In this document: positions 29,309 through 44,877 of the stretch, in pieces
Layout: every line of letters starts with the position of its first letter
How positions within the stretch are numbered: the stretch's first letter is position 1
Source of the DNA: Frankia sp. AiPa1
GTDB taxonomy: Bacteria > Actinomycetota > Actinomycetes > Frankiales > Frankiaceae
Assembly: GCF_023243075.1 (NCBI RefSeq)
Contig: NZ_JALKFZ020000140.1
Coordinates: 1-64,000, forward strand
Length of the DNA: 64,000 nt
Direction: 5' to 3'
Made by a program: the position numbers and the translations under genes
Notes under the pieces: generated by a model
What the model saw: the letters and a program-made list of their open reading frames with translations, nothing else
Told to the model about the DNA's origin: nothing
The model's database searches: none

Positions 29309-30751
29309 ATTGGTGGAACAGGCCGGGGCGGCGGGACGAGGGACATCGAGTACGGAGACACCGAGCAGGTCGGTGAGAGAAGGCGGCGCAGTGGCGCCGC
29401 ATCCGGGGGCAACCACCGCGTCGTGCTGTGGCTCCTGCTGGGCGTCGTTCTGCTGTCGTCCTCGGCGTACGGGGTGCTGCTGCTGCTGGGGCCGTTCGTG
29501 AAGACGGTCGGCGGCACCGAACAGACCTATGGCGCCCTGTGCGCGGCCGCGGCGATCCCGACGGCGATCGCCCTGGCACTGCTCCTGCGTTTTCCCCGGA
29601 CGGTGCCGCCGAATCTGCTGCTCGCCGGGTCCTGCCTGGTGTACACGGCCGCGGCGGTGCTCACGGCCGACGTGCACTCCCAGGGAGCGGTGCTGGTGGT
29701 CTCGGCGATCGTGCTCGGTACGGCGTGGGCGGTGACGTACACGGCCGCGCCGATGATTGCCTCCGACCTGTCCGACGACCGCAACCGTGCCACGCTGATC
29801 GGTTATGCGACCGGCACCATCCAGGCCGGCTTCGGCATCGGGCCGGTGCTCGGCAACGCGCTGCGCGACGCCGGGATGTCCTACCAGCAGGTCTTCCTGG
29901 TCGGCGCGGGTCTGGCGTTCGGTGCGGCGCTGCTGGTGGTGCCGTTGACGGTGCAGCTGCGTCGCCTGCCCTCGCCCGGCGCGTACGGGGGGCGCGCCGA
30001 CGAGCCCGCCACGCCGGCCGCCGTGCCGGCCCCGAGACCGGCGCGGCCCGCGGCCGCCGAGGAGAGCAGCCTGCGGCGGATGCTGCGCTCGCCGAGCGTC
30101 GTGCCGTTGACGATGGTGCTGCTCAGCGCCTGCGTGTTCACCACGATGAACAGCTTCCAGACCACCTTCGCCGACAGCCGGCACCTCGACTTCGACATCT
30201 TCTATGTGACGTACACGATTGCCGTCATCGCGGTCCGCCTGGGCCTGGCCCGAATGCTGTCGGACAGCGCCTCCGACCGGGTGGTCGCGGTGACGACCGT
30301 CGGCATGACGGCCGCGTCGGTGGCGTTCGTGTTCGTCGGATCGAGCACGGTGCTCTACTGCCTCGCGTCGCTGTTGCTGGGCTGCACGTACGGCCTGGGC
30401 CTGCCGGCATTCCAGGCCCGCGCGGTGAACCTGGCCGGCCCGGCGGAGCGGGTTCGGATGCTGCCGATGGCCGGGCTGCTGTTCGAGGTCGCGATTCTCG
30501 CTTTCCCGATCGCCGCCGGCGCGGTCGTCGACGCCCACGGCTACCGGGGCCTGTTCGTGCTGCTCATCTGCATCACCGGCGTGGTGACGGCGCTCGGTCA
30601 GATCCGGGGCGGGGCCCAGCCGCATGGGACACCGGCGCATGGGACACCGGCGCATGAGACGCCGGCCGCCAGCGGGCGGGCGCAGACGACCGGCAGCCCG
30701 GCGGCGGCTGACATCGCGGCCGCCGAGCCTGCTGGGCCCCGGCTGGGATGA
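29303..30751 (+). CDS. MFS transporter
   Basis: A major facilitator superfamily protein of about 482 residues with roughly twelve hydrophobic segments in two halves (LLLGVVLLSSSAYGVLLLLG begins the first; MVLLSACVFTTMNSFQTTFA the second). The two halves are joined by an Ala/Pro/Arg-rich cytosolic loop. The cytoplasmic loop between helices 2 and 3 does not keep the standard sequence. A short N-terminal charged tail and a C-terminal tail with GTPAH repeats flank it. ATG 29303 is the only plausible in-frame start and has no clear ribosome binding site; a short leader from the TATATC element would fit. The substrate is unknown. Because it shares an operator-like palindrome with the uptake operon at 44.8 kb, it is a candidate exporter for the product of the neighbouring block. 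Confidence 0.8.
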   Translation: MLIGGTGRGGGTRDIEYGDTEQVGERRRRSGAASGGNHRVVLWLLLGVVLLSSSAYGVLLLLGPFVKTVGGTEQTYGALCAAAAIPTAIALALLLRFPRTVPPNLLLAGSCLVYTAAAVLTADVHSQGAVLVVSAIVLGTAWAVTYTAAPMIASDLSDDRNRATLIGYATGTIQAGFGIGPVLGNALRDAGMSYQQVFLVGAGLAFGAALLVVPLTVQLRRLPSPGAYGGRADEPATPAAVPAPRPARPAAAEESSLRRMLRSPSVVPLTMVLLSACVFTTMNSFQTTFADSRHLDFDIFYVTYTIAVIAVRLGLARMLSDSASDRVVAVTTVGMTAASVAFVFVGSSTVLYCLASLLLGCTYGLGLPAFQARAVNLAGPAERVRMLPMAGLLFEVAILAFPIAAGAVVDAHGYRGLFVLLICITGVVTALGQIRGGAQPHGTPAHGTPAHETPAASGRAQTTGSPAAADIAAAEPAGPRLG

Positions 30752-30767
30752 GAGGCAGGACAGACGG

Positions 30768-31883
30768 GTGTACTTCTGCGCGGACTACGCCGAGGCACGG
30801 CAACGATTTCTCGAGGCTGCCCGCGAGCGCGGTGCGCAGGTCGAGTCGTTCGTCCTGGACGGCCTGACCGGCCCGGCCGGCGAGGAACTGGGCACCGACG
30901 TCGCCAGGATCGGGGCCGAGCGCGGTCCGGCCGTGCTGGTGCTGGTCAGCGGCACGCACGGCACCGAGGGGTTCGCCGGGTCCGCCTGCCAGCTGCGCGT
31001 CCTGCGGGAGACGTCCTGGCCCGACCTGCCGATCGTGTTCGTGCACGCGCTGAACCCCTTCGGCTTCGCGCACCACCGCCGGGTCAACGAGGACAACATC
31101 GACATCAACCGCAACTTCCTCGACCACGACCAGCTGCCACCCGACCGTGGCTACGGCGAGCTGCACGACTCGCTCCTGCCCGGCGACTGGGAGGGGCCCG
31201 CGCACGCCGAGGCCGACGCGGCCCTGTTCGCCCACGCCGACCGGCTCGGCCTGCGGGCGGTGCAGCAGCGCATCACCGGCGGCCAGTACACCCATCCGGG
31301 CGGGTTGTTCTACGGTGGCGCGGCGCCCTGCTGGTCGAACCGCACCTGGCGCCGGATCATCCGCCGGTACCTGACCGGCTATGCGCGGGTGGCGTACATC
31401 GATCTGCACACCGGCCTCGGCGCGCGTGGCGCCGCCGAACCGATCTTCCGTGGCGGCCCCGACCCGGACGCCCCCCGCCGCGCCCGTGCCTGGTACGGCG
31501 AGGCCCTCACCGACTCCGACGAGGGCACCTCCAGCTCGACGCCGATCGGCGGCAACTCCGCCCGCGCCCTCGCCCAGGAACTCGGCGACGGGCAGCCCGG
31601 CAGCCCGCAGATCACCGCCATCACCTGCGAGTTCGGCACCCAGGACGGTCTGACGGTGCTGCGCGCCCTGCAGGCCGACAACTGGCTCTGGCAACAGCGC
31701 GCACCCGTCGACGACACTGTGCGCGCCCGCATCGCCGGGCTCGTGGGTGACGCCTTCAACCCGGACGACGAAGGATGGCGCACCAACATCCTCGATGGCG
31801 GCCTCGCCACCATCACCCGGGCCGCCACCAGCGTGCGCATCCCCCTCGGCGTTGATTCCCTCGACGGCGATGCCGTGATCTGA
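30768..31883 (+). CDS. DUF2817 M14-like zinc peptidase
   Basis: A 371-residue DUF2817 protein related to M14 zinc carboxypeptidases. Candidate metal ligands are the HxxE pair in SGTHGTEGFAGS and the later His in YIDLHTGLGARG; a catalytic-type glutamate sits in ITCEFGTQDG. There is no signal peptide, so it is probably cytosolic. GTG 30768 follows AGGCAGGA and lies 16 bp behind the MFS stop, so the two may be co-transcribed. It ends 25 bp from the convergent end of the aspartate-kinase-like gene. The family is largely uncharacterised; a role in trimming or hydrolysing a peptide-like product is possible but unproven. Confidence 0.82.
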   Translation: MYFCADYAEARQRFLEAARERGAQVESFVLDGLTGPAGEELGTDVARIGAERGPAVLVLVSGTHGTEGFAGSACQLRVLRETSWPDLPIVFVHALNPFGFAHHRRVNEDNIDINRNFLDHDQLPPDRGYGELHDSLLPGDWEGPAHAEADAALFAHADRLGLRAVQQRITGGQYTHPGGLFYGGAAPCWSNRTWRRIIRRYLTGYARVAYIDLHTGLGARGAAEPIFRGGPDPDAPRRARAWYGEALTDSDEGTSSSTPIGGNSARALAQELGDGQPGSPQITAITCEFGTQDGLTVLRALQADNWLWQQRAPVDDTVRARIAGLVGDAFNPDDEGWRTNILDGGLATITRAATSVRIPLGVDSLDGDAVI

Positions 31884-31908: not shown

Positions 31909-33057
31909 TCAGGCCGGGACAGACCTGACGAGGTCGTGCTGGGCGCGGGCGACGGCGGGGGCGTTGTCGGCGGCGACGAGCTGGTGTTCGAGGCGTCCGT
32001 TCGGGAAAAGCGTCGTCACGAGCCGTAGCTCGGGCAGGTGGCGTAGGCCGCGGTCGCGCAGGTCCTGAACGGCATCGGCCAGGACGAGGTACGTCCCATG
32101 TCCGCCGGTCGCCGCCGAGCGGCCACCGCGGGCAGCCGGGGAGACGAGCACGACGTCCGCCCCGAGGGCGGTGAGTTCGTCGAACTGGCCGTGCACGAGC
32201 GGCGCGTCACCGGTCCAGACCGTGCCGGTGGCGTGGACGAGGACGGCGGCGTCGCTGGTGGCGACGGCGCCGACCACCGAGTGGACGCGGCCCTCGGGCA
32301 GCAGCGACCGGCAGTGGATCTCGACGCGGTGGCGCCGGGCCCAGTCGACCGCGCTGTGGTGCAGGACCTTCGCGCCGTGGCGGGACATCGTCATCATCGT
32401 GTCGTATCCGACGCTCGCCAGGGTGCGGGCGTCCGGGACCAGGCGCGGGTCGGCGGTGCAGATGCCCGGGGAGTCGGAGAAGATCTCGCAGGCGGGGGCG
32501 CCCAGCGCGATCGCGGCGGCGATCGCGGACAGGTCGGAGCTGTTGCGGCCCAGCATCACCGGGTTGCCGCCGGCGGCCAGGGCCTGCCCGCCGGGGATGA
32601 CGAGCACCGTCCCGGCGGGCAGGCCGGCGAGATGCCCGGTGAGTACCGAGGCATCGATCGCCCGCAGCTCGGCGCTGTGCGGTTCGCCCGCGCCGAGCAG
32701 GCCCGTGTCGGCGGGTCCGAGCGGCACCGTGCGCAGCCCCGCATCGCGCAGGGCCGCCGTCATGACCGCGACGTTGACAGTCTCCCCGGTCATGAGCGCC
32801 GCGGCGAGCAGTTCGCGCGGCGGGTCGGGACTGACGGCCCGCACCGCGGCGGACAGCCGATCCGTCTCTCCGGCGACGGCGCTCACGACGATGACGGCGC
32901 CAATGCCGGCCGGGCCCCCCGCGCGCAGCCGGTCGGCGACGTAGGCGGCGATGTGGCGGTGCGCGCCCGGCGCGGCGAAGGCCGCTCCGCCGAACTTCAG
33001 CACGATCACGTCGGTGCGGCCGGGCCCGCTCGCCGGCCCGCTGGTCAGCGCCACCAC
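31909..33057 (-). CDS. Aspartate kinase homologue
   Basis: A protein of about 382 residues with the amino-acid-kinase fold of aspartokinases, which make beta-aspartyl phosphate from aspartate and ATP. VIVLKFGGAAF matches the KFGGTSV opening. GRNSSDLSAIAAAIALG replaces the usual GRGGSD-TA. EIFSDSPGICTADPRLVPDA matches the conserved EIYTDVDGVYTADPR region, and HGAKVLHHSAVDWARRHRV is the last kinase motif. The C-terminal regulatory region is short and poorly matched to ACT domains, so feedback control may be weak. The start is either GTG 33057, overlapping the end of the dehydrogenase gene, or GTG 33009 just before the kinase motif. It is the last gene of the minus-strand block and probably supplies aspartyl phosphate to it. 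Confidence 0.82.
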   Translation of the reverse strand: MVALTSGPASGPGRTDVIVLKFGGAAFAAPGAHRHIAAYVADRLRAGGPAGIGAVIVVSAVAGETDRLSAAVRAVSPDPPRELLAAALMTGETVNVAVMTAALRDAGLRTVPLGPADTGLLGAGEPHSAELRAIDASVLTGHLAGLPAGTVLVIPGGQALAAGGNPVMLGRNSSDLSAIAAAIALGAPACEIFSDSPGICTADPRLVPDARTLASVGYDTMMTMSRHGAKVLHHSAVDWARRHRVEIHCRSLLPEGRVHSVVGAVATSDAAVLVHATGTVWTGDAPLVHGQFDELTALGADVVLVSPAARGGRSAATGGHGTYLVLADAVQDLRDRGLRHLPELRLVTTLFPNGRLEHQLVAADNAPAVARAQHDLVRSVPA

Positions 33058-34088
33058 GGCAGCCCACTGACGAGCTGGACGATCTCGAGCGCGTTGAGCG
33101 CGGCGCCGATGGTCAGGTTGTCGGCGACGACCCACATCCACAGGGCGCACGGGTCATCCGGGTCGTTGCGGATCCGGCCGACGTGGACGAGCCGGCGCTC
33201 GGCCGGGTCCGCGCAGACCAGGCGCGGCATCGGGTAGCCGTCGGCGTCGCCGTAGGCGCGCAGGCCCGGGGCGGAGCGCAGGGCGTCGAGGGCGTCGGCA
33301 GGGGAGACCGGCGCGCCGAACGTGACATGCACGGCCTCGGAATGGCCGTTGACCACGGCCACCCGCACCGCGGTCGCGGCGACCTTCAGCCCCGGCATGT
33401 CCATGATCTTGCGCGGCTCACGGCGCAGCTTGCGTTCCTCGTGGGAGTGGCCTTCGTCGTCGCGCAGGCCGATCTCGGGGATCAGGTTGAAGGCGAGCGG
33501 CGGGCCGAACCTGCCGCGGGTGGCGTCCGCCGGGTCGGCGCCGTCGAGGATGCCGCGGGTGGTGTCGGCGAGCTCCTGAAGACCGTGCAGCCCGCCGCCG
33601 GACGCCGACTGGTAACTGGAGACGATGACCCGTTCGATCTCGCCCAGCGCGCGCAGCGGATGCAGCGCCCGCACCATCTGGATCGTCGAGCAGTTCGGGT
33701 TCGCGACGATGCCGCGGGCGGGCCGGGTGGTCAGGGCCTGCGGGTTGACCTCGGGGACGACGAGCGGTACGTCGTCGTCCATCCGGAACGCCGAGCTGTT
33801 GTCGACGACGAGCGCGCCGGCCGCCGCCAACCGGGGGCCGTACTCGGTGCTGATCGGCGCTCCGGCGCTGAACACGGCGACGTCCACCGTGGCCGGGTCG
33901 AACTCCTCGAGCGCGACCACCGGCTCGACCTTCAGCGTCAGGCCGAGTTCCTCGCGCAGATCCCGCCCGGCGGAGCCGGCGGACGCGACGGGCACGACCC
34001 GATCGATGCCGGGCACCAGGCCCGACTCCAGCAGGGTCAGGCACTCCCGGCCGACCACCCCCGTAGCGCCGACGACGGCGATGTCCAC
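33045..34088 (-). CDS. Aspartate-semialdehyde dehydrogenase homologue
   Basis: A 347-residue Asd-family protein that would reduce beta-aspartyl phosphate to aspartate semialdehyde with NADPH. The nucleotide-binding GATGVVGRECL opens the chain. VDNSSAFRMDDDVPLVVPEVNP and the catalytic cysteine in IVANPNCSTIQMV match the family. The second signature around SYQSASGGGLHGLQELADTT is also present, as is the histidine region GHSEAVHVTF. GTG 34088 follows AGGGGGAA. The gene overlaps the kinase gene by a few bases. A separate housekeeping asd is likely elsewhere, so this copy is probably dedicated to the block. Confidence 0.88.
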   Translation of the reverse strand: MDIAVVGATGVVGRECLTLLESGLVPGIDRVVPVASAGSAGRDLREELGLTLKVEPVVALEEFDPATVDVAVFSAGAPISTEYGPRLAAAGALVVDNSSAFRMDDDVPLVVPEVNPQALTTRPARGIVANPNCSTIQMVRALHPLRALGEIERVIVSSYQSASGGGLHGLQELADTTRGILDGADPADATRGRFGPPLAFNLIPEIGLRDDEGHSHEERKLRREPRKIMDMPGLKVAATAVRVAVVNGHSEAVHVTFGAPVSPADALDALRSAPGLRAYGDADGYPMPRLVCADPAERRLVHVGRIRNDPDDPCALWMWVVADNLTIGAALNALEIVQLVSGLPWWR

Positions 34089-34207: not shown

Positions 34208-35029
34208 TCAGGCGGTGGCGGCGGTGTCGGTCCGCACCGACTTCTCGTCGGCGAAGGTGGCGTCGAGGTCGACCCAGCCGCCGTCGACGTAGAGGACCTC
34301 GCCGTTGACGTAGCTGGCCGCGTCCGAAGCGAGGAACACCGCGGGGCCGGCGATCTCGGCGGGCTTCGCCCAGCGGCGCAGCGCGACCTTTTCCGAGTAC
34401 GCGTCCGCCCACGCGGACGAGGAGCGGATCGGCACGGTCAGCGCCGTCTCGACCGGCCCGGGGGCGATCGCGTTGACCCGCACGCCGAGCGGGCCGAGTT
34501 CGGCGCCGAGCACCCGCACCATCTGCGCGAGCGCCGCTTTGGTGCCGGCGTAGATGACCTGTCCGGGTTCGACGGCGCGGCTGGAGATCGACGAGATGAC
34601 GATGATGCTGCCGCTGCCCTGTGCCGCCATGATGCGTCCGGCGCCGCGCAGGACGTTGAAGCTGCCGCGCAGGTTGACGTCGGTGACGGCGGTGTACTCG
34701 TCGTCGGTGTAGTCGATCAGCGGCTTGCGGATGTTGATGCCGGGAGTGCCGACGGCGATGTCGAGCTGGCCGCGCTCCTGCGCGACCCTGGTGAGCAGCC
34801 CGTCGACGTCGGCGGAGAGCCGCACGTCCAGGGTGGTGGCCTTCGCGGTGCCGCCGGCGGCGACGATCGACGCGACAGTCTCCTCGACCCCGGCGGTGTC
34901 GATGTCGCCGCACTCGACGGCGGCGCCCTGGGCGGCCAGGGCGATCGCGATCGCGCGGCCGATACCGGATGCGGCGCCGACGACGGCCGCGACTCGGCTG
35001 GTCAGACTTGGGCCTGTTGGGTCCGGCAC
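34208..35029 (-). CDS. Short-chain dehydrogenase/reductase
   Basis: A 273-residue classical SDR. The NAD(P)-binding motif is GAASGIGRA and the catalytic Ser-Tyr-Lys set lies in ISSISSRAVEPGQVIYAGTK. The C-terminal GEVLYVDGGW is family-typical. The usual NNAG structural motif is changed to GTPGIN, which is uncommon but known in divergent members. AGGAG precedes GTG at 35029. About 120 bp separate it from the dehydrogenase gene. In this context it could reduce aspartate semialdehyde-derived aldehydes or oxidise an alcohol on the product; the substrate is not known. Confidence 0.85.
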   Translation of the reverse strand: MPDPTGPSLTSRVAAVVGAASGIGRAIAIALAAQGAAVECGDIDTAGVEETVASIVAAGGTAKATTLDVRLSADVDGLLTRVAQERGQLDIAVGTPGINIRKPLIDYTDDEYTAVTDVNLRGSFNVLRGAGRIMAAQGSGSIIVISSISSRAVEPGQVIYAGTKAALAQMVRVLGAELGPLGVRVNAIAPGPVETALTVPIRSSSAWADAYSEKVALRRWAKPAEIAGPAVFLASDAASYVNGEVLYVDGGWVDLDATFADEKSVRTDTAATA

Positions 35030-35198: not shown

Positions 35199-36116
35199 CT
35201 ACCCGCGGGCGGCGGAGGACCGGGCTGGCTTCCGGGTACGGCGGGTGAAGTTCGCCATGATCGCGTCGACGGTTTCCTCGGGGATGCGCACCATGCACAG
35301 GATGCGGTCACCCGGCTCGGCGTGCCGCTCGAAATGCGCGTTGACCTCAGCGTCATCCCCCTGTGGACGGACGCGGTAAAGGTCGCGGGGCACGCCGATG
35401 CCGGCGATGCCGCCGCTTGCCGGGTCGAAGGGTGCCCCCGGCGCCAGCGCGGCCGCGATCTCACCAGCCAGCGCCACGACCTGCGCGTCGGGATCACCCG
35501 AGGCGGTGCCGATCGCCGGGTACATGGCCGCGCCGGGTAGCCGGCCATAGGCACGCATCGCGCAGTAGGCGACCGGGTTGTAGGTGCGCAGCGCCGCCAG
35601 GTAGGGAAATCCGCCGGTGGCGGCGACTTCTTCAAGCAGCGCCAGCCAGCTGGTCGCGAACGCCTGGCCGCCGCGCAGCTCGGCGGCCACGAACTGGATG
35701 CCGATGTGCAGAAACGGCCGGCCGGAGGCGGTCGTGGCCCAGCTCGCGCCGAGCGCCGACACGGGGGTCCCGCTGGCCCGTTCGACGCCGACGACGAGGT
35801 GCTGCGACTCGCGCAGCAGGCCGGGCCGGATGTCGAACAGGGCGTTCATCCGCAGGTCGGGTAGGGCGGAGGCGAGCCCGGTGCGCAGCCAGCGGTCCTC
35901 GGCGGGACTCAGCGGGCACTCGTCGCGGGCGAAGCGGACGATGGTGTGCGCCGCCGCCGCCAGCTCCGGATCCGCGGATCCACCCGGGCCGCGTACGTCA
36001 CTCGCGCTTCGCGCGCCACCTCCAGCGGCCGGACCGTCGCCGTTGCTGGGTGGTGCGCCCCCGGCAGGCCCGTCCGTACGGGGCGGGACGGGCGGGGACG
36101 TCGGTAATCCGGACAC
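35199..36116 (-). CDS. GNAT-like acyltransferase, divergent
   Basis: A 305-residue protein. After a Gly/Pro/Ala-rich N-terminal 60 residues it shows a pattern close to GNAT N-acyltransferases: HIGIQFVAAELRGGQAFATS resembles motif A (R-G-x-Q/G-x-A pyrophosphate loop), and LAALRTYNPVAYCAMRAYG resembles the later T/N-NP-Y helix. The match is by eye and divergent. GTG 36116 is the only start that keeps the whole conserved part; the ribosome binding site is weak, but the gene lies 23 bp after the stop of the diiron-type oxidase gene, so translation may be coupled. It would act in the cytosol, possibly acylating an amine in the pathway. Function is uncertain. Confidence 0.6.
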   Translation of the reverse strand: MSGLPTSPPVPPRTDGPAGGAPPSNGDGPAAGGGARSASDVRGPGGSADPELAAAAHTIVRFARDECPLSPAEDRWLRTGLASALPDLRMNALFDIRPGLLRESQHLVVGVERASGTPVSALGASWATTASGRPFLHIGIQFVAAELRGGQAFATSWLALLEEVAATGGFPYLAALRTYNPVAYCAMRAYGRLPGAAMYPAIGTASGDPDAQVVALAGEIAAALAPGAPFDPASGGIAGIGVPRDLYRVRPQGDDAEVNAHFERHAEPGDRILCMVRIPEETVDAIMANFTRRTRKPARSSAARG

Positions 36117-36139: not shown

Positions 36140-36931
36140 TCAGGCGAACCGGCCGGTGAGGGTGCCGGCCGACTCGAACGTGCTCTTCGCCGGGGCGACC
36201 ACGGCCTGGTAGAGCTCGAGGAAGTAGGCCACCCACAGGTTCGCCACGATCTTGATGTGATCGAGCACCTTCGCCTCGTCCTCTGGGGAGGACACCAACG
36301 AGGTCAGCACACCCCAGACGAAGTCGGCGTGCTCGTCGTCGATGTCGGTGCCGACGTGCCGCCGGGCGCCGGCGACCTTCTCCCGGCCGAGCTTCTCCTC
36401 GAGGTTCTTCACCCAGGAGGGCTGCGTCTCGGTGGTCGTGTACTCGACGAAATAGACGCTGCACAGCAGGGCCAGCGGGGTGCCCTCGAACTCCATGCCG
36501 TACTGCAGGTAGCCGGTGAGCAGCTTTGTGGCCTGGAACGGCTCGGTGGCATAGATCTCCTCCTTGGTGACACCGACCCGGCCCAGGTCGCCGGCGAACC
36601 ACTCGTCGTGGAGCATCTCGTCCTCGACGTAGTGGGCCCAGGCGGCGCCGCGAACCGGGTCCCGCTTGGTGAAGTAGCCGATGGCCAGCGCGTCGATGGT
36701 GCGCTTGCGGCGCAGCCGCAGGATCGTCTCGATGTTGTGGCGCTTGTAGTACTCCAGGTTGAGTTCCTCGCCGCGGGCCTGGTGGTCCGCGTACGGGATC
36801 TCGGCGTAGAACTTGGCGATCATGGCGTCAAGCAGGTCGTTGACCTGCTTGCGCAGCGCGCCTAGATCGGCCGTGCGGGCGGCGGCGGCCTTGCGCGGGT
36901 CTCCGTACCAGCTACGTGGGTCGTCGGTCAT
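36140..36931 (-). CDS. Haem-oxygenase-like putative diiron oxidase
   Basis: A 263-residue all-helical protein of the TenA/PqqC/HDO type. Candidate metal ligands follow the HDO pattern: E103/E105 and H108 in HYVEDEMLHDEWF, a later E163, and H192, D196/D199 and H201 in RRHVGTDIDDEHADF. HDO enzymes use two irons and oxygen for N-oxygenation, C-C cleavage, desaturation or decarboxylation of amino acids and fatty acids, often in natural-product pathways; PqqC, the cofactor-free relative, finishes PQQ. GGAAGGAG precedes ATG 36931. It is flanked by the M29-like gene and the GNAT-like gene in one direction. Which reaction it performs cannot be predicted. Confidence 0.72.
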   Translation of the reverse strand: MTDDPRSWYGDPRKAAAARTADLGALRKQVNDLLDAMIAKFYAEIPYADHQARGEELNLEYYKRHNIETILRLRRKRTIDALAIGYFTKRDPVRGAAWAHYVEDEMLHDEWFAGDLGRVGVTKEEIYATEPFQATKLLTGYLQYGMEFEGTPLALLCSVYFVEYTTTETQPSWVKNLEEKLGREKVAGARRHVGTDIDDEHADFVWGVLTSLVSSPEDEAKVLDHIKIVANLWVAYFLELYQAVVAPAKSTFESAGTLTGRFA

Positions 36932-37019: not shown

Positions 37020-38129
37020 TCAGCAGCCGCAACTCGGGGTGCGGCGCCGGTTGAGCCGACGGGCGGGTCCCGGCTCGGGGGTGACCGCGCAGACGGGGGC
37101 GTCCGGACCGGCGATCCGCGCGTCGGTGGCCGGATTGGTGATGACCGTGTCGGCACAGGTGAAGGTGAGGGCGTATCGGGTCGTCGGGGTCAGTCCGAAC
37201 CCGAGGTGGACGATGCCGTCGGAGCCGCCGAACATCTCGTTGAGCCCGCAGTTGCCGGCCTGCTGGACGAGCTCGGGGTTCAGACCGATACCGAACTCCC
37301 ACACGACCCGGTAGGACTCGTCGGCGGCGTAGAGCTTGCCGAGGGTGTCGACGGCACGCTGACCGGCGGGGTCGATGGCGCGCACGCCGGTGACCATGCC
37401 GTCGGCGAGGTCGAGCACGATTGTCGCGTCGCGCAGGACGTCGAGGTCGGTGAACAGCTCCGCCTGCTCGTCGAGCACGGCCGGGTCGTCGCCGCGGTGC
37501 ACGATGGGCGCGCCGCGCAGGGCGATGCTGCCCTCGAGCGCGAGCCGGCTGGACGTGTCGAACCGGTAGAGCCCGGTGGGGGCGGCGCTGGCCTCGCCGG
37601 ACGGCGCGATCTGCTGCTCACCCGGGCCGAGCAGCCCGGCCTGCTGGTTCCACTCGTAGTCGCCGGAGACGCGCAGGCGGGCCGAGGCGTGGCCGGCGTG
37701 GTCGGCCAGGAGCACCTCGTCCGCGTCGCCCAGGGCTTCGAACAGCCGGTCGGCGCGGGCCTCGAGCGCGACGCTGTCGGTGCGCTGGACGACGTCGAGG
37801 AAGTACGCGACGTGCGCGTCGGTCACCGGCGTCGAGCCGCAGGGCATCACCGCGAGCCGCCTGGACCCGATCTCGTCGGGCTCCGGGGAGACCAGGAACC
37901 GGTCGGGGCAGACGACGAACACATCGGCGTCGGTCGGCACCCCGGCGCCGCGCAGGGCGTCGGCGAGGCTCTGCACGGCCTCGACCGTGCGGTGCACGAC
38001 CTCGCGGTAGCGCTCGCTTGCGGCCAGGCTGAAGTCGGTGGCCCGGTCGGCCTGGGTGAGCAGGCAGAAGGTGCTGTGGGGGCCGGGAAACTCCCGATGG
38101 GAGTCGGGACGCACGACGAACTGTGCCAT
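37020..38129 (-). CDS. M29-aminopeptidase-like protein, two metal ligands missing
   Basis: A 369-residue relative of M29 (AmpS/AmpT) metallo-aminopeptidases and paralogue of the protein encoded at 38471-39565. Shared landmarks are C97 in CGSTP, WNQQAGLLGPGEQQ at 160-173, E179 in PSGE, E278 in YRVVWEFG and H308 in IVHLGFG. The family's final His-x-Asp metal pair is replaced by A320-x-T322. It may therefore bind one metal only, or act as a non-catalytic partner or as an enzyme with another activity. The C-terminus is basic and ends CGC. ATG 38129 is used; an in-frame GTG three codons earlier is possible. The gene lies downstream of the small-peptide gene and its hairpin, and 88 bp before the oxidase gene. 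Confidence 0.7.
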   Translation of the reverse strand: MAQFVVRPDSHREFPGPHSTFCLLTQADRATDFSLAASERYREVVHRTVEAVQSLADALRGAGVPTDADVFVVCPDRFLVSPEPDEIGSRRLAVMPCGSTPVTDAHVAYFLDVVQRTDSVALEARADRLFEALGDADEVLLADHAGHASARLRVSGDYEWNQQAGLLGPGEQQIAPSGEASAAPTGLYRFDTSSRLALEGSIALRGAPIVHRGDDPAVLDEQAELFTDLDVLRDATIVLDLADGMVTGVRAIDPAGQRAVDTLGKLYAADESYRVVWEFGIGLNPELVQQAGNCGLNEMFGGSDGIVHLGFGLTPTTRYALTFTCADTVITNPATDARIAGPDAPVCAVTPEPGPARRLNRRRTPSCGC

Positions 38130-38283
38130 GGGAACCACCAGGATGCGCGACGCGACGGAAACGGGATCATGAGGTGACGGGCGGCTGTGCGCATGGCGTG
38201 ACGACCGGGTGGAACTCAGGCGGAGCTCAGTGCGAAGCCCTGCGCGGGAACTCAGCGTGAGAGCTCATGACACGTCCAGAGTC

Positions 38284-38317
38284 GGGGTGGGCCAGCCCGG
38301 TCCAGCTGACCCACCCC
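38284..38317 (-). terminator. Strong hairpin directly after the small-peptide gene
   Basis: GGGGTGGGCCAGC (38284-38296) and GCTGACCCACCCC (38305-38317) pair along 13 positions with one mismatch and an 8-nt loop. The hairpin starts 13 bp after the peptide stop codon. No U-run follows. It fits a partial terminator or a processing/stability element that would leave more peptide mRNA than mRNA for the downstream genes. Confidence 0.7.
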
Positions 38318-38329
38318 TTCTCCGCGGCA

Positions 38330-38401
38330 TCAGCCGAGGAGGGTGCCCAGGTAGCGGTCGTTCTTCTTCACCTGGATCTTCTTCTGCGCGACCTTCTCCA
38401 C
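38330..38401 (-). CDS. 23-residue small peptide, candidate modified-peptide precursor
   Basis: A 23-codon ORF (GTG start at 38401, stop 38332-38330). It is preceded by GGAAGGAGGTGATCACT, which contains the near-complete complement of the 16S rRNA 3' end with 8 nt to the start codon, the strongest ribosome binding site in the region. The peptide begins MEKVAQKK and ends DRYLGTLLG. It is Lys-rich in its first 13 residues (five Lys) and has no Cys, Ser or Met besides the start. The gene lies between the two M29-like paralogues on the same strand and is followed by a strong hairpin. This setting is like that of RiPP precursors such as PqqA (also about 23 residues, with an HDO-fold enzyme encoded nearby), but the sequence does not match PqqA. 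Alternatives are a leader/regulatory peptide or a scaffold peptide. Too short for usual gene finders. Confidence 0.65.
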   Translation of the reverse strand: MEKVAQKKIQVKKNDRYLGTLLG

Positions 38402-38470
38402 AGTGATCACCTCCTTCCGTCAATCCACGGTAGTGCGGTGAGAGACGAGGAAAGCCCCGCCCCAACCCGG

Positions 38471-39565
38471 TCAGGTGGCCAGACCAACCGGACTTCTGGG
38501 GGGCACTGCCGACGTCGGGTCGGTCGGCGTGCCCAGCATGACGTCGCCCTTGTCGTTCCGGACGACGGTCCCCGGAGAAATGATGTCGAGGTGGTACTGC
38601 GTGAACGGCGTGAGCCCGATGCCCCAGTGGAGGCAGCCCTGATTTCCGCCGTAGACCTCGTTCATCGCGTGGTTTCCGGGAAGAATGTTGAGAGTGGTGT
38701 TCAGCGCGTGGCCGATCTCCCAGACCAGCCGGTAGCGGGAGTCTACCGCGAAGAGCGCCTCGAACATCTCTATAATAGCATTCCCGCCCGGGTCGGGGGA
38801 AGACGTCGCGGTGATGAATCCGTTTTCCACGTGGGCGACGACGGCGTACTCGTTCATCGGCCAGAACTTGCCGTGAATACGCTCCTGGTCGCGCCGGGAG
38901 AACGACGGGGTGCCCGAGTGAAGAATGGGGTATCCCTGGAAGACGATATCACCGTCGAGCGGCAGGTGCAGGTAATCCTCGAAAGAGCGGATCTCGATCG
39001 GCAGCACACTGATCTCGCCGGCTGGAACAATCTGCTGCTCACCCCAGCCGACCAGGCCCGCCTGCTGGTTCCAGACCAGCTCGACATCGAACAGGCGCAA
39101 CGTGGCGACCGTGCCGTACCGGTCGTCCCGGTACTCCAGGCACTCGCCGCGCTCGGCGAGCTCGAAGAACCGGTCGGAGAAGTCCTCCTGGGCCTGCGGA
39201 TCCGTCGCCTCGACGCAGGTCAGGAAGTGGCGCAGGGTCTCGAGGTCGGTCGGCGTGGAGTTGCAGGCCATCCCGAGCAGCTTGCGTCGCGGGCCGAGCA
39301 CGTCGACTGGCGGTGACTGGAAGAACGCGTCGGGCGACATGACCAGCACATGTGCCTGCTCGGGGACGTCCTCACGCATGAGCCGGGCGAACTCGTCCTC
39401 GCCACCGCGGAAATCGATGATGCGGTAGTCGTCGTACGCAGAATCCCGGACCAGGCGAATACTGTCCATCAGGCTGGCATTGGTCACGAGACAGAAGGCC
39501 GTGCCCGTCGGATCGCCGAACTGGCGTATCCGGGACGGATCGACGACGATCTCGGACGAGGTCAT
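38471..39565 (-). CDS. M29-aminopeptidase-like protein, full metal-ligand set
   Basis: A 364-residue protein related to M29 metallo-aminopeptidases. The metal-ligand positions known for Thermus aminopeptidase T can be matched: E184 in VPAGE, E283 in LVWEIG, H313 in CLHWGIGL, and H325/D327 in YHLDI. C101 in CNSTPT and WNQQAG (165-170) are shared with its paralogue encoded at 37020. The N-terminal half is divergent from true peptidases. AAGGAGGAGAAG precedes ATG. It is the first gene after an 859-bp intergenic gap and lies 69 bp before the small-peptide gene. It may hydrolyse or otherwise process that peptide, or act on another amide; substrate unknown. Confidence 0.72.
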   Translation of the reverse strand: MTSSEIVVDPSRIRQFGDPTGTAFCLVTNASLMDSIRLVRDSAYDDYRIIDFRGGEDEFARLMREDVPEQAHVLVMSPDAFFQSPPVDVLGPRRKLLGMACNSTPTDLETLRHFLTCVEATDPQAQEDFSDRFFELAERGECLEYRDDRYGTVATLRLFDVELVWNQQAGLVGWGEQQIVPAGEISVLPIEIRSFEDYLHLPLDGDIVFQGYPILHSGTPSFSRRDQERIHGKFWPMNEYAVVAHVENGFITATSSPDPGGNAIIEMFEALFAVDSRYRLVWEIGHALNTTLNILPGNHAMNEVYGGNQGCLHWGIGLTPFTQYHLDIISPGTVVRNDKGDVMLGTPTDPTSAVPPRSPVGLAT

Positions 39566-40424: not shown

Positions 40425-41411
40425 TCAGCGTCCGCTCCGGGGGGGCGGGGCGGTGGGCGCCGGGCCGGCCTGGGCGATGCCGGACGGGGCAGTGCCGGAC
40501 GGGGCGATGCCGGACGGGCCGGGGATGGGCACGCAGGTACGGATCTCCGCCCGGCCGTGTCCGGGCGGCAGGCTGACGCCCGTGACGTGCACCGGCACGC
40601 CGTACAGGTCACTGAGCCGTTCGCCGGTGACGACGTCGTCGGGATGCCCGTCGGCGATCACCGCGCCGGCGCGCATCAGCACCGCCCGGTTCGAGTAGGT
40701 CAGGGCGTGCGAGGGCTGGTGGGTGGTCATGATGATGCAGTGCCCCTCCCGGGCCAGTTCCGCGACGACCAGCAGGGTGCGGACCTCGTTGCCGTAGTCC
40801 AGGGCGGCGGTGGGTTCGTCGAGGATCAGGATCCCCGCCTGCTGCACCAGCGCCCGGGCAAGCAGCACGAGCTGGCGTTCGCCGCCGGAGAGCGCGGCGA
40901 AGGACCGCTCGGCCAGGTGCGCGATGCCGAGCCGATCGAGCTGCTCGAGTGCACCGCGCCGGTCGGTGGCATTCGGCGCCTCGAGCAGACCGAGGTGGGG
41001 AGTGCGGCCCATGACGGCGATGTCGAGCGCGGTGAACGGGAACGGCGACGAGGTCGACTGCGGCACGTAGGCGACCCGGCGGGCAAGTTCTCGCGGGGTG
41101 AGATCGGTGAGATCCCGTCCGGCGAGCCGCACGGTGCCGCCATGCGGGCGTAGCAGTCCGAGCAGACAGCGCAGCAGTGTCGTCTTGCCGGCGCCGTTCG
41201 GTCCGAGCAGACAGCAGACCTCCGCGGCGTGCACCGTCAGGGAGACGTCGACGATCCGGTGGCCGTTGCGGCCGTACCCGAACGACAGGCCGCTGACCTC
41301 GACCTGTGGTGTGTCGGTGGACGAGGCGGCCGGGAGCCCCGGGGCAGACTGGTCCGGGTGGGTCTCGCCGTTTCCGTTCTCGCTGGTCCGGGTCCTGCCA
41401 GTCAGAGCCAT
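40425..41411 (-). CDS. ABC ATPase of metallophore/iron uptake
   Basis: A 328-residue FecE/FhuC-type ATPase. Walker A is GPNGAGKTT, the Q-loop region reads RVAYVPQS, the signature is LSGGERQ and Walker B ILILDEPTAALD. It energises uptake through the permease encoded just upstream, whose gene it overlaps by 10 bp. A Ser/Thr-rich N-terminal tail of 35 residues and a C-terminal tail of repeated PSGIA/PSGTA units are extensions. The family imports ferric siderophores, haem or cobalamin; the metal is not readable from the ATPase. Confidence 0.9.
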   Translation of the reverse strand: MALTGRTRTSENGNGETHPDQSAPGLPAASSTDTPQVEVSGLSFGYGRNGHRIVDVSLTVHAAEVCCLLGPNGAGKTTLLRCLLGLLRPHGGTVRLAGRDLTDLTPRELARRVAYVPQSTSSPFPFTALDIAVMGRTPHLGLLEAPNATDRRGALEQLDRLGIAHLAERSFAALSGGERQLVLLARALVQQAGILILDEPTAALDYGNEVRTLLVVAELAREGHCIIMTTHQPSHALTYSNRAVLMRAGAVIADGHPDDVVTGERLSDLYGVPVHVTGVSLPPGHGRAEIRTCVPIPGPSGIAPSGTAPSGIAQAGPAPTAPPPRSGR

Positions 41412-42586
41412 TGGCGTCCCGCCTTCGCGAGTAGACCGACGAAGAACGGCGCGCCGATGAGCGCGGTGAGGATGCCCAACGGCAGGTCGAGCGAGGTGGC
41501 GGTGCGTGCGACGTCGTCGACGGCGAGCAGGTAGGCCGCCCCGATGAGGGCCGCCACCGGCAGGAGACGGTTGAACGACGGGCCGACGATGAAGCGGGCC
41601 AGATGCGGGACGACGAGCCCGACCCAGCCGATGATGCCGGCGACGCTGACCGCGGTCGCGGTCATCAGCGTGGACGCGCCGATCGTCAGCGCCCAGATCC
41701 GCGCCCGGTTGACGCCGAGGGAGCGGGCCTCGTCGTCCCCGGTGGCGAGCACGGTGAGCTGCCAGCGCACCGCGTACAGGATGCACAGGCAGACCCCGAC
41801 TATGATCGCGGGCACGATCAGCCCGTGCATGCTGGCCCGGGCCAGGCTGCCGAACAGCCAGAAAGTGATCTCCGGCAGGGTGGTCTCCGGATTGGCGAAG
41901 TACTGCACGCTGGAGATCAGCGCGTTGAACATCGCGCCGATGATGATGCCGCCGAGCACCAGGATGATCAGTGAGCCGCGCCCCACGAACCGGGCGATGG
42001 CCATCGAGAGCGCCGCGGCGGAGAGCCCACAGCCGAACGAGACGATCTGCAGCAAAGTCGTGTCGAGGCCGATGAGGATGGACACGGAGGCACCGAACCC
42101 GGCGCCGGCGGCCACGCCCAGGATCTCCGGGGAGACCAGCGGGTTGCGGAACATGGTCTGGTATGCGGCCCCGGAGGACGCCAGCGCCGCGCCGACGAGC
42201 AGCGCGGCGAGGATGCGCGGCATCCGGATGTCCATGACGACCGCCCGGTCCTGCCCGCCGACCGCGTCGCCGATGCCGAACAGCTCGTGGCCGAGCACCC
42301 GCAGGACGGTCCACGGGCTCAGGGCGAACCGTCCGAGCCCGAACGAGATCACCACCAACACGAGGAGAACCACCCCGAGGGTGACGACGCGCAGGTGGTC
42401 GCCAAGGGTCAGGCGGAGCCTGGCGGTGGCCCGGCCGCCTCGTCCCTTCGGCGCGCCGGTCGACGGGGTGGCAGCGGAGGCGATGGTGGCCTGGCCACCA
42501 TCGCCGGATCCGCCCTCACCGGGCCTGGTGGCGGGTACCGGGGCCGCGTCGTGGTCGGCGTCCGAGGGCGGTGCGGGGCGGCTCAC
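41402..42586 (-). CDS. FecCD-family ABC permease
   Basis: A 394-residue membrane permease of the FecCD/BtuC type with about nine to ten hydrophobic segments. Family landmarks are RMPRILAALLVGAALASSGA followed by FRNPLVSPEILG, and GWVGLVVPHLARFIVGP near the end. A charged, Gly/Ala-rich N-terminal tail of about 60 residues precedes the first helix. The start codon overlaps the stop of the monooxygenase gene (GTGA), which indicates translational coupling. Only one permease gene is present, so it presumably forms a homodimer. The transported ligand should be a metal chelate or cobalamin-like compound. Confidence 0.92.
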   Translation of the reverse strand: MSRPAPPSDADHDAAPVPATRPGEGGSGDGGQATIASAATPSTGAPKGRGGRATARLRLTLGDHLRVVTLGVVLLVLVVISFGLGRFALSPWTVLRVLGHELFGIGDAVGGQDRAVVMDIRMPRILAALLVGAALASSGAAYQTMFRNPLVSPEILGVAAGAGFGASVSILIGLDTTLLQIVSFGCGLSAAALSMAIARFVGRGSLIILVLGGIIIGAMFNALISSVQYFANPETTLPEITFWLFGSLARASMHGLIVPAIIVGVCLCILYAVRWQLTVLATGDDEARSLGVNRARIWALTIGASTLMTATAVSVAGIIGWVGLVVPHLARFIVGPSFNRLLPVAALIGAAYLLAVDDVARTATSLDLPLGILTALIGAPFFVGLLAKAGRQWL

Positions 42587-43593
42587 CGGATCACCCGGTG
42601 GACGGACGGCTGGGCGAGCAGCGGCACGACCTTGCCGGCGAACATGCGCACGGTGCTCTGCTGCATGGCCAGGGACGCGGTACCGCTGAACGACGGGCGC
42701 AGGTTCACCCGCACCACGCCGAGGTCGTCGCGCAGGGCCGCCATGCGACGGGCGACGCTGGTCGGGCCGCCCACGACGGCGGTGTCGTCCTGGAAGCGGG
42801 CCGGATCGAAGTCGCTGTCCCCGGCGATCTGGTGGCCGTGCTCGTCCCCGCCGAGGGCGGCCAGGCGCCGGGTCAGGCGCACGACGATCGGGGTGGCGCG
42901 TTCCCGAGCCGCTTCGTCGTTCTCGGCGACCAGGCAGAACCGCTCGACCCGGACATCGGCGGCCTGCCCGCCGTTCGCGGTGTAGAGCGCGACGCAGGCG
43001 GCGACCGACTCCGTGGTCGTCACCGCGGGCAGCAGCAGTCGGTGACCATGACTGGCCGCCCAGACGATGGACTCCTGCGAACGGGGGGCGACCTCGATCG
43101 GCGGGTGCGGCTGCTGCAACGGGCTGGGGCCGACGCGGTACTGCGCGCCGCCCGCCGGGCGGGTCCGGCCGCGCCAGTAGCCGATCAGGGTGTCGAGGGC
43201 GTCGGGCAGTTCGCTTGGTGCCGGGCCGTCACCCTGATAGGCCGCCGCGTAGCTGGCGACGGGCCAGCCGACACCGACGATGACCCGCCCACCGCTGAGG
43301 TGGTCGAGGGTGGCGAGGTCGGCGGCGAGCCGGATCGGGTCGTGAAGTGGCAGGTGCAGGGCGGTGAAGCCGAGACCGATCCGCCCGGTGGCGGTCGCGA
43401 CCGCCGCGGCCAGCGGGAGAGGCGACGGGCGTGATGTCACCGACCGGGAACCGACCGTACCGAGATGTCCGTCGGTGAACCAGAGACTGTCGTATCCGAG
43501 GGTCTCGGCGACCCGGGCGAGTTCCACCGTCGAGGTGGACCCGTCACCCCCGAGATCGCCGCGCCCGCCGGGCAGGCCGAATCGCATGAGCAT
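42583..43593 (-). CDS. Luciferase-like monooxygenase
   Basis: A 336-residue flavin- or F420-dependent oxidoreductase of the luciferase-like superfamily. It begins MRFGLPGGRG after a short lead, and shows ARVAETLGYDSLWFTDGHLG, IGLGFTALHLPLHDPIRLAA and LSGGRVIVGVGWP, typical of LLM proteins. It lies between the binding-protein gene and the permease gene and overlaps the latter by 4 bp. It is therefore made together with the importer and may act on the imported compound, for example to release a metal or degrade a chelator. That role is inferred from position only. The ATG at 43593 or 43587 may be used; no clear ribosome binding site. Confidence 0.85.
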   Translation of the reverse strand: MLMRFGLPGGRGDLGGDGSTSTVELARVAETLGYDSLWFTDGHLGTVGSRSVTSRPSPLPLAAAVATATGRIGLGFTALHLPLHDPIRLAADLATLDHLSGGRVIVGVGWPVASYAAAYQGDGPAPSELPDALDTLIGYWRGRTRPAGGAQYRVGPSPLQQPHPPIEVAPRSQESIVWAASHGHRLLLPAVTTTESVAACVALYTANGGQAADVRVERFCLVAENDEAARERATPIVVRLTRRLAALGGDEHGHQIAGDSDFDPARFQDDTAVVGGPTSVARRMAALRDDLGVVRVNLRPSFSGTASLAMQQSTVRMFAGKVVPLLAQPSVHRVIR

Positions 43594-43670
43594 GGTTGTG
43601 TCACTGCGCCGGAGGCGCGGCCCTTCCCGTCCGAAGCTGCTTACCACGACGTTGGTTGCCACGACGTTGG

Positions 43671-44807
43671 TTACTTGGTGCCGACCTGAAGGATCTGGTC
43701 GAGGTCGGCGTCGGTCACCTGGTAGTCGAAGAACTTCTGGTAGAAGGAGCGCGTCTCGGCACGGATGTCGAGGTCCTTGAACAGGTCGGGATGCAGCGTC
43801 TTGGCGATCCACTGGATCTGCAGTGCCTCCTCGGGACCGAACCGGTCCCAGGGGTAGAGGCCCTGCGGGTTGAGGTACACCCGGTTCGTCTGCACGGCCT
43901 TGAGGCTCTTCCATCCGGGGGCCTTCTCGAACGCGCTGATGACCGACTGGGCGGTGTTCGCCGCGAGGCCCTGGTCACCGCCGGGGGTCTCGACCACCAG
44001 GACGTCGGGATTCCACCGCAGCAGCTGCTCGAGGGTGACGGTGACGTGGGTGCCCTTGACGCCGCTCGCCGAGTCGGTGCCCCCACCGAGCTTGATCCAG
44101 GCGTCGATCAGCGACGTTCCACCGTCGACGACCAGCGGCGGATAGCTGGCGATGTGCACGACGCTGGGCGCCTGGTCGGCCGGCAGGTTCGCCAGCCGCG
44201 ACCGCACCAGCTTCAGCTTCGCGTTGACGTAGTCGGCGTAGGCCTTGGCCTTGGCCGGGGCGGTGCCGCCGTACATCTTGCCGGACAGCTCGATGGACGG
44301 GACCAGTTCCGCGAAGGTGTTGTAGGCCGTGTTGACCGCGGGAATGCCGGCCTGCCTGAAGGGTGTGAGGGTGTCGCCGCCGCTGCTGGTGGACACGAGG
44401 TCCGGCTTCAGCTTGAGCAGCTCCTCCATGTTCACCTTGCCGCCGTTACGGAACAGCTCGGGCAGGTCGTTGATCCTGGGGAAGACCGTGCGCAGGAACG
44501 GGAGGGTCTTGACGTTCTGCGGGATGGCCACCAGCCTGTCGCCGGCGCCGAGCATGATGTCGGTGACGGTGTGGGCGGGGAACTGCTCCGCGATCCGGTC
44601 GACCTTCAGCGGGACGGTCGCCTTCTCACCGCTCATTCCGGTGACAACCTGCGTCGTGGGCGTTGCCGGTGCCGCTGGTGCCGCCGTGGACGACCCGGAG
44701 GAGCCGCAGCCGGCGGCCAGCGCCGCAATGCCTGCCGCCGCACCCAGGGCCAGCAGGCGCGTGCGCATCAGCCGGGTCCCGCGGGATGGGATGGAGCTTG
44801 TTACCAC
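43671..44807 (-). CDS. Iron-siderophore-type solute-binding lipoprotein
   Basis: A protein of about 378 residues of the FecB/BtuF-type cluster A binding proteins. An N-terminal hydrophobic segment ends in a lipobox-like LAAGC, so it should be a surface lipoprotein. The body has the two-lobe pattern: VDRIAEQFPAHTVTDIMLGA, LKPDLVSTSSGGDTLTPFRQ and VVHIASYPPLVVDGGTS. GTG 44807 follows GGGGGA; ATG 44768 directly before the signal peptide is the alternative. It is the first gene of the uptake operon and probably sets its ligand specificity. Two palindromic sites lie upstream. Confidence 0.88.
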   Translation of the reverse strand: MVTSSIPSRGTRLMRTRLLALGAAAGIAALAAGCGSSGSSTAAPAAPATPTTQVVTGMSGEKATVPLKVDRIAEQFPAHTVTDIMLGAGDRLVAIPQNVKTLPFLRTVFPRINDLPELFRNGGKVNMEELLKLKPDLVSTSSGGDTLTPFRQAGIPAVNTAYNTFAELVPSIELSGKMYGGTAPAKAKAYADYVNAKLKLVRSRLANLPADQAPSVVHIASYPPLVVDGGTSLIDAWIKLGGGTDSASGVKGTHVTVTLEQLLRWNPDVLVVETPGGDQGLAANTAQSVISAFEKAPGWKSLKAVQTNRVYLNPQGLYPWDRFGPEEALQIQWIAKTLHPDLFKDLDIRAETRSFYQKFFDYQVTDADLDQILQVGTK

Positions 44808-44860
44808 GTCTTCGTCCCCCGAATGGGTGAATGCCCGAAAAAGTAAAAAGTAACGAGGTC

Positions 44861-44877
44861 GGCACATACGGTGTGCC
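44861..44877. promoter_or_regulatory. 17-bp palindrome near the uptake operon start
   Basis: GGCACA-TACGG-TGTGCC has two perfect 6-bp arms and a 5-bp spacer. It lies about 55 bp upstream of the binding-protein start codon, where a repressor could block the promoter. The regulator is unknown; it does not match the IdeR/DmdR or Zur box sequences I know. Confidence 0.5.

Follow-up and report, generated by a model that had tools for sequence, protein, structure and literature searches.

The genome of Frankia sp. AiPa1 carries, in the 64,000-nt stretch of DNA analysed here (the window; the assembly comprises 6.98 Mb), a 23-codon gene that lies on the minus strand between two larger genes, here called A and B. 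It starts with GTG and is translated as VEKVAQKKIQVKKNDRYLGTLLG-stop. The peptide gene, the features that flank it and the neighbouring enzyme genes are collected in Table 1.

Table 1. Features of the peptide locus in the window.
Feature	Position	Strand	Remarks
Putative precursor peptide gene	38330..38401	-	23 codons, GTG start, MEKVAQKKIQVKKNDRYLGTLLG
Shine-Dalgarno sequence AAGGAGGTGATC	38405..38416	-	3 nt 5' of GTG; 12-nt complement of 16S 3' end
Hairpin	38284..38317	-	14 bp, 6-nt loop, directly 3' of peptide stop; compensatory changes
Gene A	38471..39565	-	CgnB-like M29-fold protein, six intact metal ligands
Gene B	37020..38129	-	Paralogue of A; ATG start taken, GTG at 38138 also possible
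Heme-oxygenase-like diiron oxidase (HDO), MboA relative	36140..36931	-	PF14518
GNAT-fold protein	35199..36116	-	No Pfam family; start inferred; low-confidence model
Short-chain dehydrogenase (SDR)	34208..35029	-	Family match
Aspartate-semialdehyde dehydrogenase (ASD)	33045..34088	-	Family match
Aspartate-kinase-like protein (ASK)	31909..33150	-	Longest open reading frame (ORF); true start probably further in
DUF2817, M14-carboxypeptidase-like	30624..31883	+	Longest ORF

The first-pass annotation, made from the letters of the window, had credited this ORF with the best ribosome binding site (RBS) of its region, complementary to the 3' end of 16S rRNA, and both statements hold. The exact 12-nt AAGGAGGTGATC occurs once in the window and at two sites in the assembly, the second being the complement of the 16S rRNA 3' end; with up to two mismatches it is found at 11 places in the window, against 3.0 expected. 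The duplex predicted between the peptide RBS and the anti-Shine-Dalgarno sequence has an energy of -24.4 kcal/mol, compared with -18.2 kcal/mol for the best of the 35 window ORFs scored, each with its own best start.

A strong hairpin had also been noted after the ORF, and folding of a 96-nt stretch bears it out (-55.4 kcal/mol, against -39.7 with sd 3.7 for shuffled sequences). Among 12 Frankiaceae sequences, 10 of them distinct, both sides have changed in six of the 14 pairs, and in the alignment of the 10 distinct sequences 99.3% of the cells are paired and 1 of 140 is unpaired; shifting the pair partners abolishes the covariation pattern. This count excludes one Frankia sequence (L003), whose contig (G004) has a long poly-C run just 3' of the peptide hairpin, probably an assembly artefact. 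Strong hairpins of other sequence stand at the same position in the seven Streptomyces loci with the commonest peptide, MKKIKVQKNRNYLGTLLG, and in genome G462; folding covered the loci other than the three genomes with tandem peptide copies and the stretch after the Paraburkholderia peptide described below. No T-run follows the stem, a terminator scan of the window does not list it, and Rfam has no match anywhere in the window. We suggest that the hairpin may stabilise the 3' end of the RNA.

The distribution of the peptide was followed in 58 related genomes, its own included, and in 343 Streptomyces. The pattern YLGTLLG-stop occurs in 13 of the former and 11 of the latter (the reversed pattern, used as a control in the Streptomyces search, gave one match), and these 24 genomes are exactly those with an A-type gene, each match lying between A and B. 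Every one of the 13 relatives that keep A thus has the peptide between paralogous A and B (12 of these A genes are complete and one is cut by a contig end). Relatives of A were matched in 20 Streptomyces, and the nine besides the 11 have only more distant ones. Three Frankiaceae have lost A or carry it in decay: in G025 a corrupted peptide tail follows a remnant of A, and in G026 and G031 no peptide was seen. The first-pass annotation had let its claim hang on conservation of the peptide in relatives, above all of its C-terminal half, and this half proves to be strictly conserved across genera and phyla.

Every intact peptide found linked to A ends in YLGTLLG. The N terminus of these peptides varies between genera (MEKVAQKK, MEQKK, MEQQKK), with KKI[QN]VKKNDRYLGTLLG constant. 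The Streptomyces peptides take the form MKKIKVQKNRNYLGTLLG, MTETKKIEVKKNGKYLGTLLG or [MV]KKTIKVRKNSNYLGTLLG, the last of which stands in tandem, with 3, 3 and 4 copies, in three Streptomyces; the other 21 of the 24 genomes have a single copy. The four tandem genes of G779 (L070, 2632-3084) encode an identical protein, are spaced 131 bp apart and lie between A and a divergent B. In Paraburkholderia largidicola the peptide MKNRKKNAEYLGTLLG immediately precedes genes for an A homologue (51% identity) and an AzlC-family protein. This locus (L052, 17851-19807; 16-residue peptide; source Physopelta gutta) is on a 2.3-Mb replicon; none of its three genes appears in the gene table, which is incomplete, and the A homologue ends in GCPCLE. 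Peptides this short can be missed by ordinary gene annotation. The ORF is a real gene and extremely conserved, and together the RBS, the hairpin and the tandem genes indicate a large supply of the peptide.

The conservation reaches the codons. The longest run of invariant codons is four in gene A (eight Frankia genomes) and 22 in the peptide, for which we obtain a probability of 6e-11, a crude figure with the Lys rate taken from one column (about 7e-8 without the five Lys). An ORF of this size, followed by a strong compensating hairpin within an operon and with its 69 coding nucleotides identical in 10 Frankia genomes, almost without silent changes, recalls attenuation, in which translation of a regulatory leader peptide, or stalling on it, would act with the hairpin to control B, the HDO gene and the genes downstream. 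Attenuation is nevertheless quite improbable: the amino acids are kept while the codons differ among Frankia, Streptomyces and Paraburkholderia, peptide copies stand in tandem, the T-run is missing after the stem, and a strict link to intact A would not be expected of a leader peptide.

The genes on either side are paralogues, as the first-pass annotation had stated, A and B being 36% identical. Its description of them as M29-like is right as to the fold, although A, B and the GNAT-fold protein match no Pfam family (one sub-threshold match, E 0.034, was obtained for a Streptomyces homologue). NCBIfam has no match for the peptide, A or B and reaches no better than E 0.07 for the GNAT-fold protein, and a profile search of PDB sequences with A returned two chance antibody matches only. 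A has the fold of the M29 aminopeptidases (PDB 2ayi, 4icr, 1zjc), and its closest folds include CgnB and CgnE. Metal ligands, assigned by motif and spacing rather than by superposition, are E184, E283, E303, H313, H325 and D327 in A, and B has Ala and Thr at the positions equivalent to H325 and D327, as in CgnE. All six ligands are present in 21 of 21 A proteins, and two or more are lost in 21 of 21 B/Bp proteins. By residue count the peptide has a charge of +4, A of -25 and B of -21. The C terminus of B has TP[DST]CGC in four of six aligned Frankiaceae sequences; the two without it come from G031 and G025, genomes with A lost or decayed.

CgnB and CgnE are described as the founders of a peptide-binding family and act with CgnC and the precursor CgnA in crocagin biosynthesis in Chondromyces crocatus; the product type is a tetracyclic pyrroloindoline, and CgnB has six metal ligands whose positions match those in the M29 aminopeptidases (PMC10070186); A keeps all six. 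The likeness to our locus extends to a precursor of about 20 residues with a basic leader and a very short C-terminal tail, encoded beside M29-fold genes; to two paralogous M29-fold proteins, one with a metal site and one degenerate; and to a releasing hydrolase in the cluster, CgnD there. The tail is YLGTLLG here, whereas crocagin has a C-terminal Tyr-Trp, and the locus instead has an MboA-related HDO, a GNAT fold and genes of the aspartate pathway. For the two-copy clusters that the authors of the crocagin paper found, a CgnC homologue and precursors with a conserved Tyr-Trp pattern are reported throughout (PMC10070186), and no CgnC-type 2-oxoglutarate oxygenase is present among the 20 window ORFs compared with Pfam, which include the operon and of which some match no family; at the other loci the scan covered part of the genes. 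Since two crocagin features, CgnC and Tyr-Trp, were not found, we regard the locus as one that would work like crocagin and not as a crocagin cluster. In open-licence PMC papers, supplements excluded, the string YLGTLLG is absent, DUF2817 and 'precursor peptide' occur together in no paper, at least two of the terms crocagin, CgnB and CgnE occur in the crocagin paper alone, and we found no description of a precursor peptide combined with paired peptide-binding proteins and an iron oxidase.

A near-perfectly conserved peptide that co-occurs strictly with A, as one copy in 21 of 24 genomes, could also remain bound to A (and B) as a small structural subunit or an activator, and not be a substrate. 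We consider this unlikely, because three of the genomes have three or four tandem genes and the RBS is unique in the genome, which suggests an excess over A, and because the fold relatives CgnB and CgnE bind a precursor that is consumed (PMC10070186).

The enzyme encoded next to B is related to MboA, its closest solved relative by sequence (E 1.2e-20; profile 2e-25). MboA, of mangotoxin biosynthesis, introduces an alkyne into the C-terminal Arg of a tripeptide, the substrate carboxylate binding Fe1, and its residues E86, H89, E143, H172, D176 and H181 (numbering as in PMC13185094) align with HDO E105, H108, E163, H192, D196 and H201, so that all metal ligands are kept. All 12 aligned sequences have these diiron ligands (3 His, 3 Glu/Asp). 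An MboB-type flavin/2Fe-2S reductase is absent from the 20 window ORFs scanned and may be encoded elsewhere in the genome. The size of the peptide and the PqqC-like fold class led us to consider a precursor of a cofactor of the pyrroloquinoline quinone or mycofactocin kind; this was rejected, as the same 20 ORFs include no radical S-adenosylmethionine (SAM) enzyme and the fold of A points elsewhere.

Where a Frankia locus extends far enough to show it, the order is A, peptide, B, HDO, GNAT fold, SDR, ASD, ASK, with DUF2817 converging. Gene content was inspected in 10 of the 11 Streptomyces loci (G507 is a 4-kb stretch only), in stretches cut at their edges. Eight of the 10 have A, peptide, B, HDO, GNAT and DUF2817, and all eight have homologues of ATP-grasp ligases in the stretches read, a further likeness to the MboA system; the Frankia window has no homologue of these ligases. 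ASD was seen in three of the Streptomyces loci and ASK in one. In the remaining two (G779, G680), a divergent B is accompanied by an S9 peptidase and by AzlC instead. In the window, the aspartate-kinase-like gene has a Pfam AA_kinase match only and no ACT domain; with ASD it suggests a dedicated supply of aspartate semialdehyde or a self-resistance copy. Upstream of A (window 41402-44867) lie genes for a FecCD permease, a luciferase-like monooxygenase and a periplasmic binding protein, in an order conserved in many Frankia loci; they may form an uptake system linked to the product.

A second, wider subfamily consists of 36-46-residue peptides that end ...SISSRISKYGKYDRL[EQ]G or ...RYGAYVNLQG and precede a single A-like gene with six of six ligands present (four loci: L053, L054, L103, L098). 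By their annotation, two of these loci (L053, 14784-16077; L054, 14802-16077) adjoin non-ribosomal peptide synthetase and GntD-like (hydroxylase) genes, and L053 is also near a radical SAM-B12 gene. More distant single-copy relatives of A in G458, G478, G483 and G614 have no convincing peptide nearby; in G606 and G652 the match to A covers fewer than 80 residues. At L097 (G620) no peptide was found, though its relative L098 has one. The M29-fold proteins of L098 (10508-11746) and L097 (8563-9810, reverse strand) have an N-terminal extension with S-[KR]-I-[QK]-V-T-R-G-N-C-P-C, which resembles the peptide leader KKIQVKKN and is perhaps a fused leader-like segment.

All peptides found, in both subfamilies, have a final L-X-Gly (LLG, LEG, LQG). 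This Gly, together with the nearby ASK and ASD genes, ligases and GNAT fold, would be in keeping with a reusable carrier of the PEARL-scaffold kind, to whose C-terminal Gly an amino acid or small unit is attached, to be cleaved off once it has been modified in the bound state. A carrier is very improbable, however: no PEARL-type ligase is among the proteins scanned, which represent part of the genes of these loci, and Paraburkholderia has only the peptide, A and AzlC adjacent.

We suggest that the peptide is probably the precursor of a ribosomally synthesised and post-translationally modified peptide, in which the leader would be held by A and B, the YLGTLLG tail modified and the product released. 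This follows from the C-terminal conservation, the presence in exactly the 24 A genomes, the tandem genes, the joint decay with A and the CgnB/CgnE-like flanking folds; the first-pass annotation's modified-peptide precursor is thus the best-supported reading. The sequence evidence covers conservation, linkage, co-loss and ligand patterns, and from these we infer the binding, modification, release and product of the peptide. The Lys-rich N-terminal half would be the leader, a basic peptide bound by two acidic proteins, of which A would retain a dinuclear metal site and B would be the metal-dead partner, as for CgnB and CgnE in crocagin biosynthesis. With its metal site defunct, B would serve to recruit the peptide and to position it, and the pair would present the invariant tail for modification, with the conserved Tyr, Thr and Leu as candidate sites. 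The adjacent HDO would modify the tail in Frankia and in the majority of the Streptomyces loci inspected, and A may also catalyse through its own metal centre, as proposed for CgnB. A very small product would then be released by a peptidase, DUF2817 in the HDO loci and the S9-family enzyme in others, and the extreme RBS, the post-stop hairpin and the tandem copies would secure an abundant supply of a peptide that is consumed.

Several points weigh against this proposal. Sequence identity to CgnB and CgnE is only 17-19%, and NicX (2,5-dihydroxypyridine dioxygenase, PDB 7cn3, 7cup), which acts on a small free aromatic, equals them in Z (18.6) and ranks first in Foldseek E-value. NicX-like small-molecule chemistry is possible; NicX is not known to be accompanied by a peptide gene. 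The HDO was found in neither the Paraburkholderia stretch nor two of the 10 Streptomyces loci (L093, L094), and it therefore cannot be the universal modifier. The substrate of MboA is a ligase-made tripeptide (PMC13185094), and of its guanidinium contacts N57, D61 and D139, which correspond to HDO K76, D80 and V159, one of three is kept; with two contacts changed, the HDO substrate residue is likely not Arg. The last residue of the peptide is Gly, which has no side chain, and desaturation of the MboA type would thus be impossible there without prior trimming, or would need another site. Finally, silent sites are more conserved in the Frankia peptide than in gene A, and this near-absence of silent changes hints at constraint on the peptide RNA too, with a possible RNA role alongside.

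If the peptide is indeed a precursor, one tentative outcome is that its C-terminal Leu-Leu-Gly is oxidised on A and B and then released, either as an unusual branched amino acid in free form or as a very short peptide. In the simple clusters AzlC would export this product, and in Streptomyces the ATP-grasp ligases would build it into a small antimetabolite. AzlC proteins are exporters of branched-chain amino acids, and such export would suit a Leu-derived product in those clusters. Were this true, a building block would be made on the ribosome, merging crocagin-type and mangotoxin-type logic. A CgnB/CgnE-like pair, with its pattern of keeping one metal site and breaking the other, occurs here with a different tail and oxidase, from Frankia to Streptomyces and in simpler form in Paraburkholderia; this would mark the pair as a general peptide-presenting module, and the peptide, A, B and the HDO make a compact, testable system for finding a new modification.
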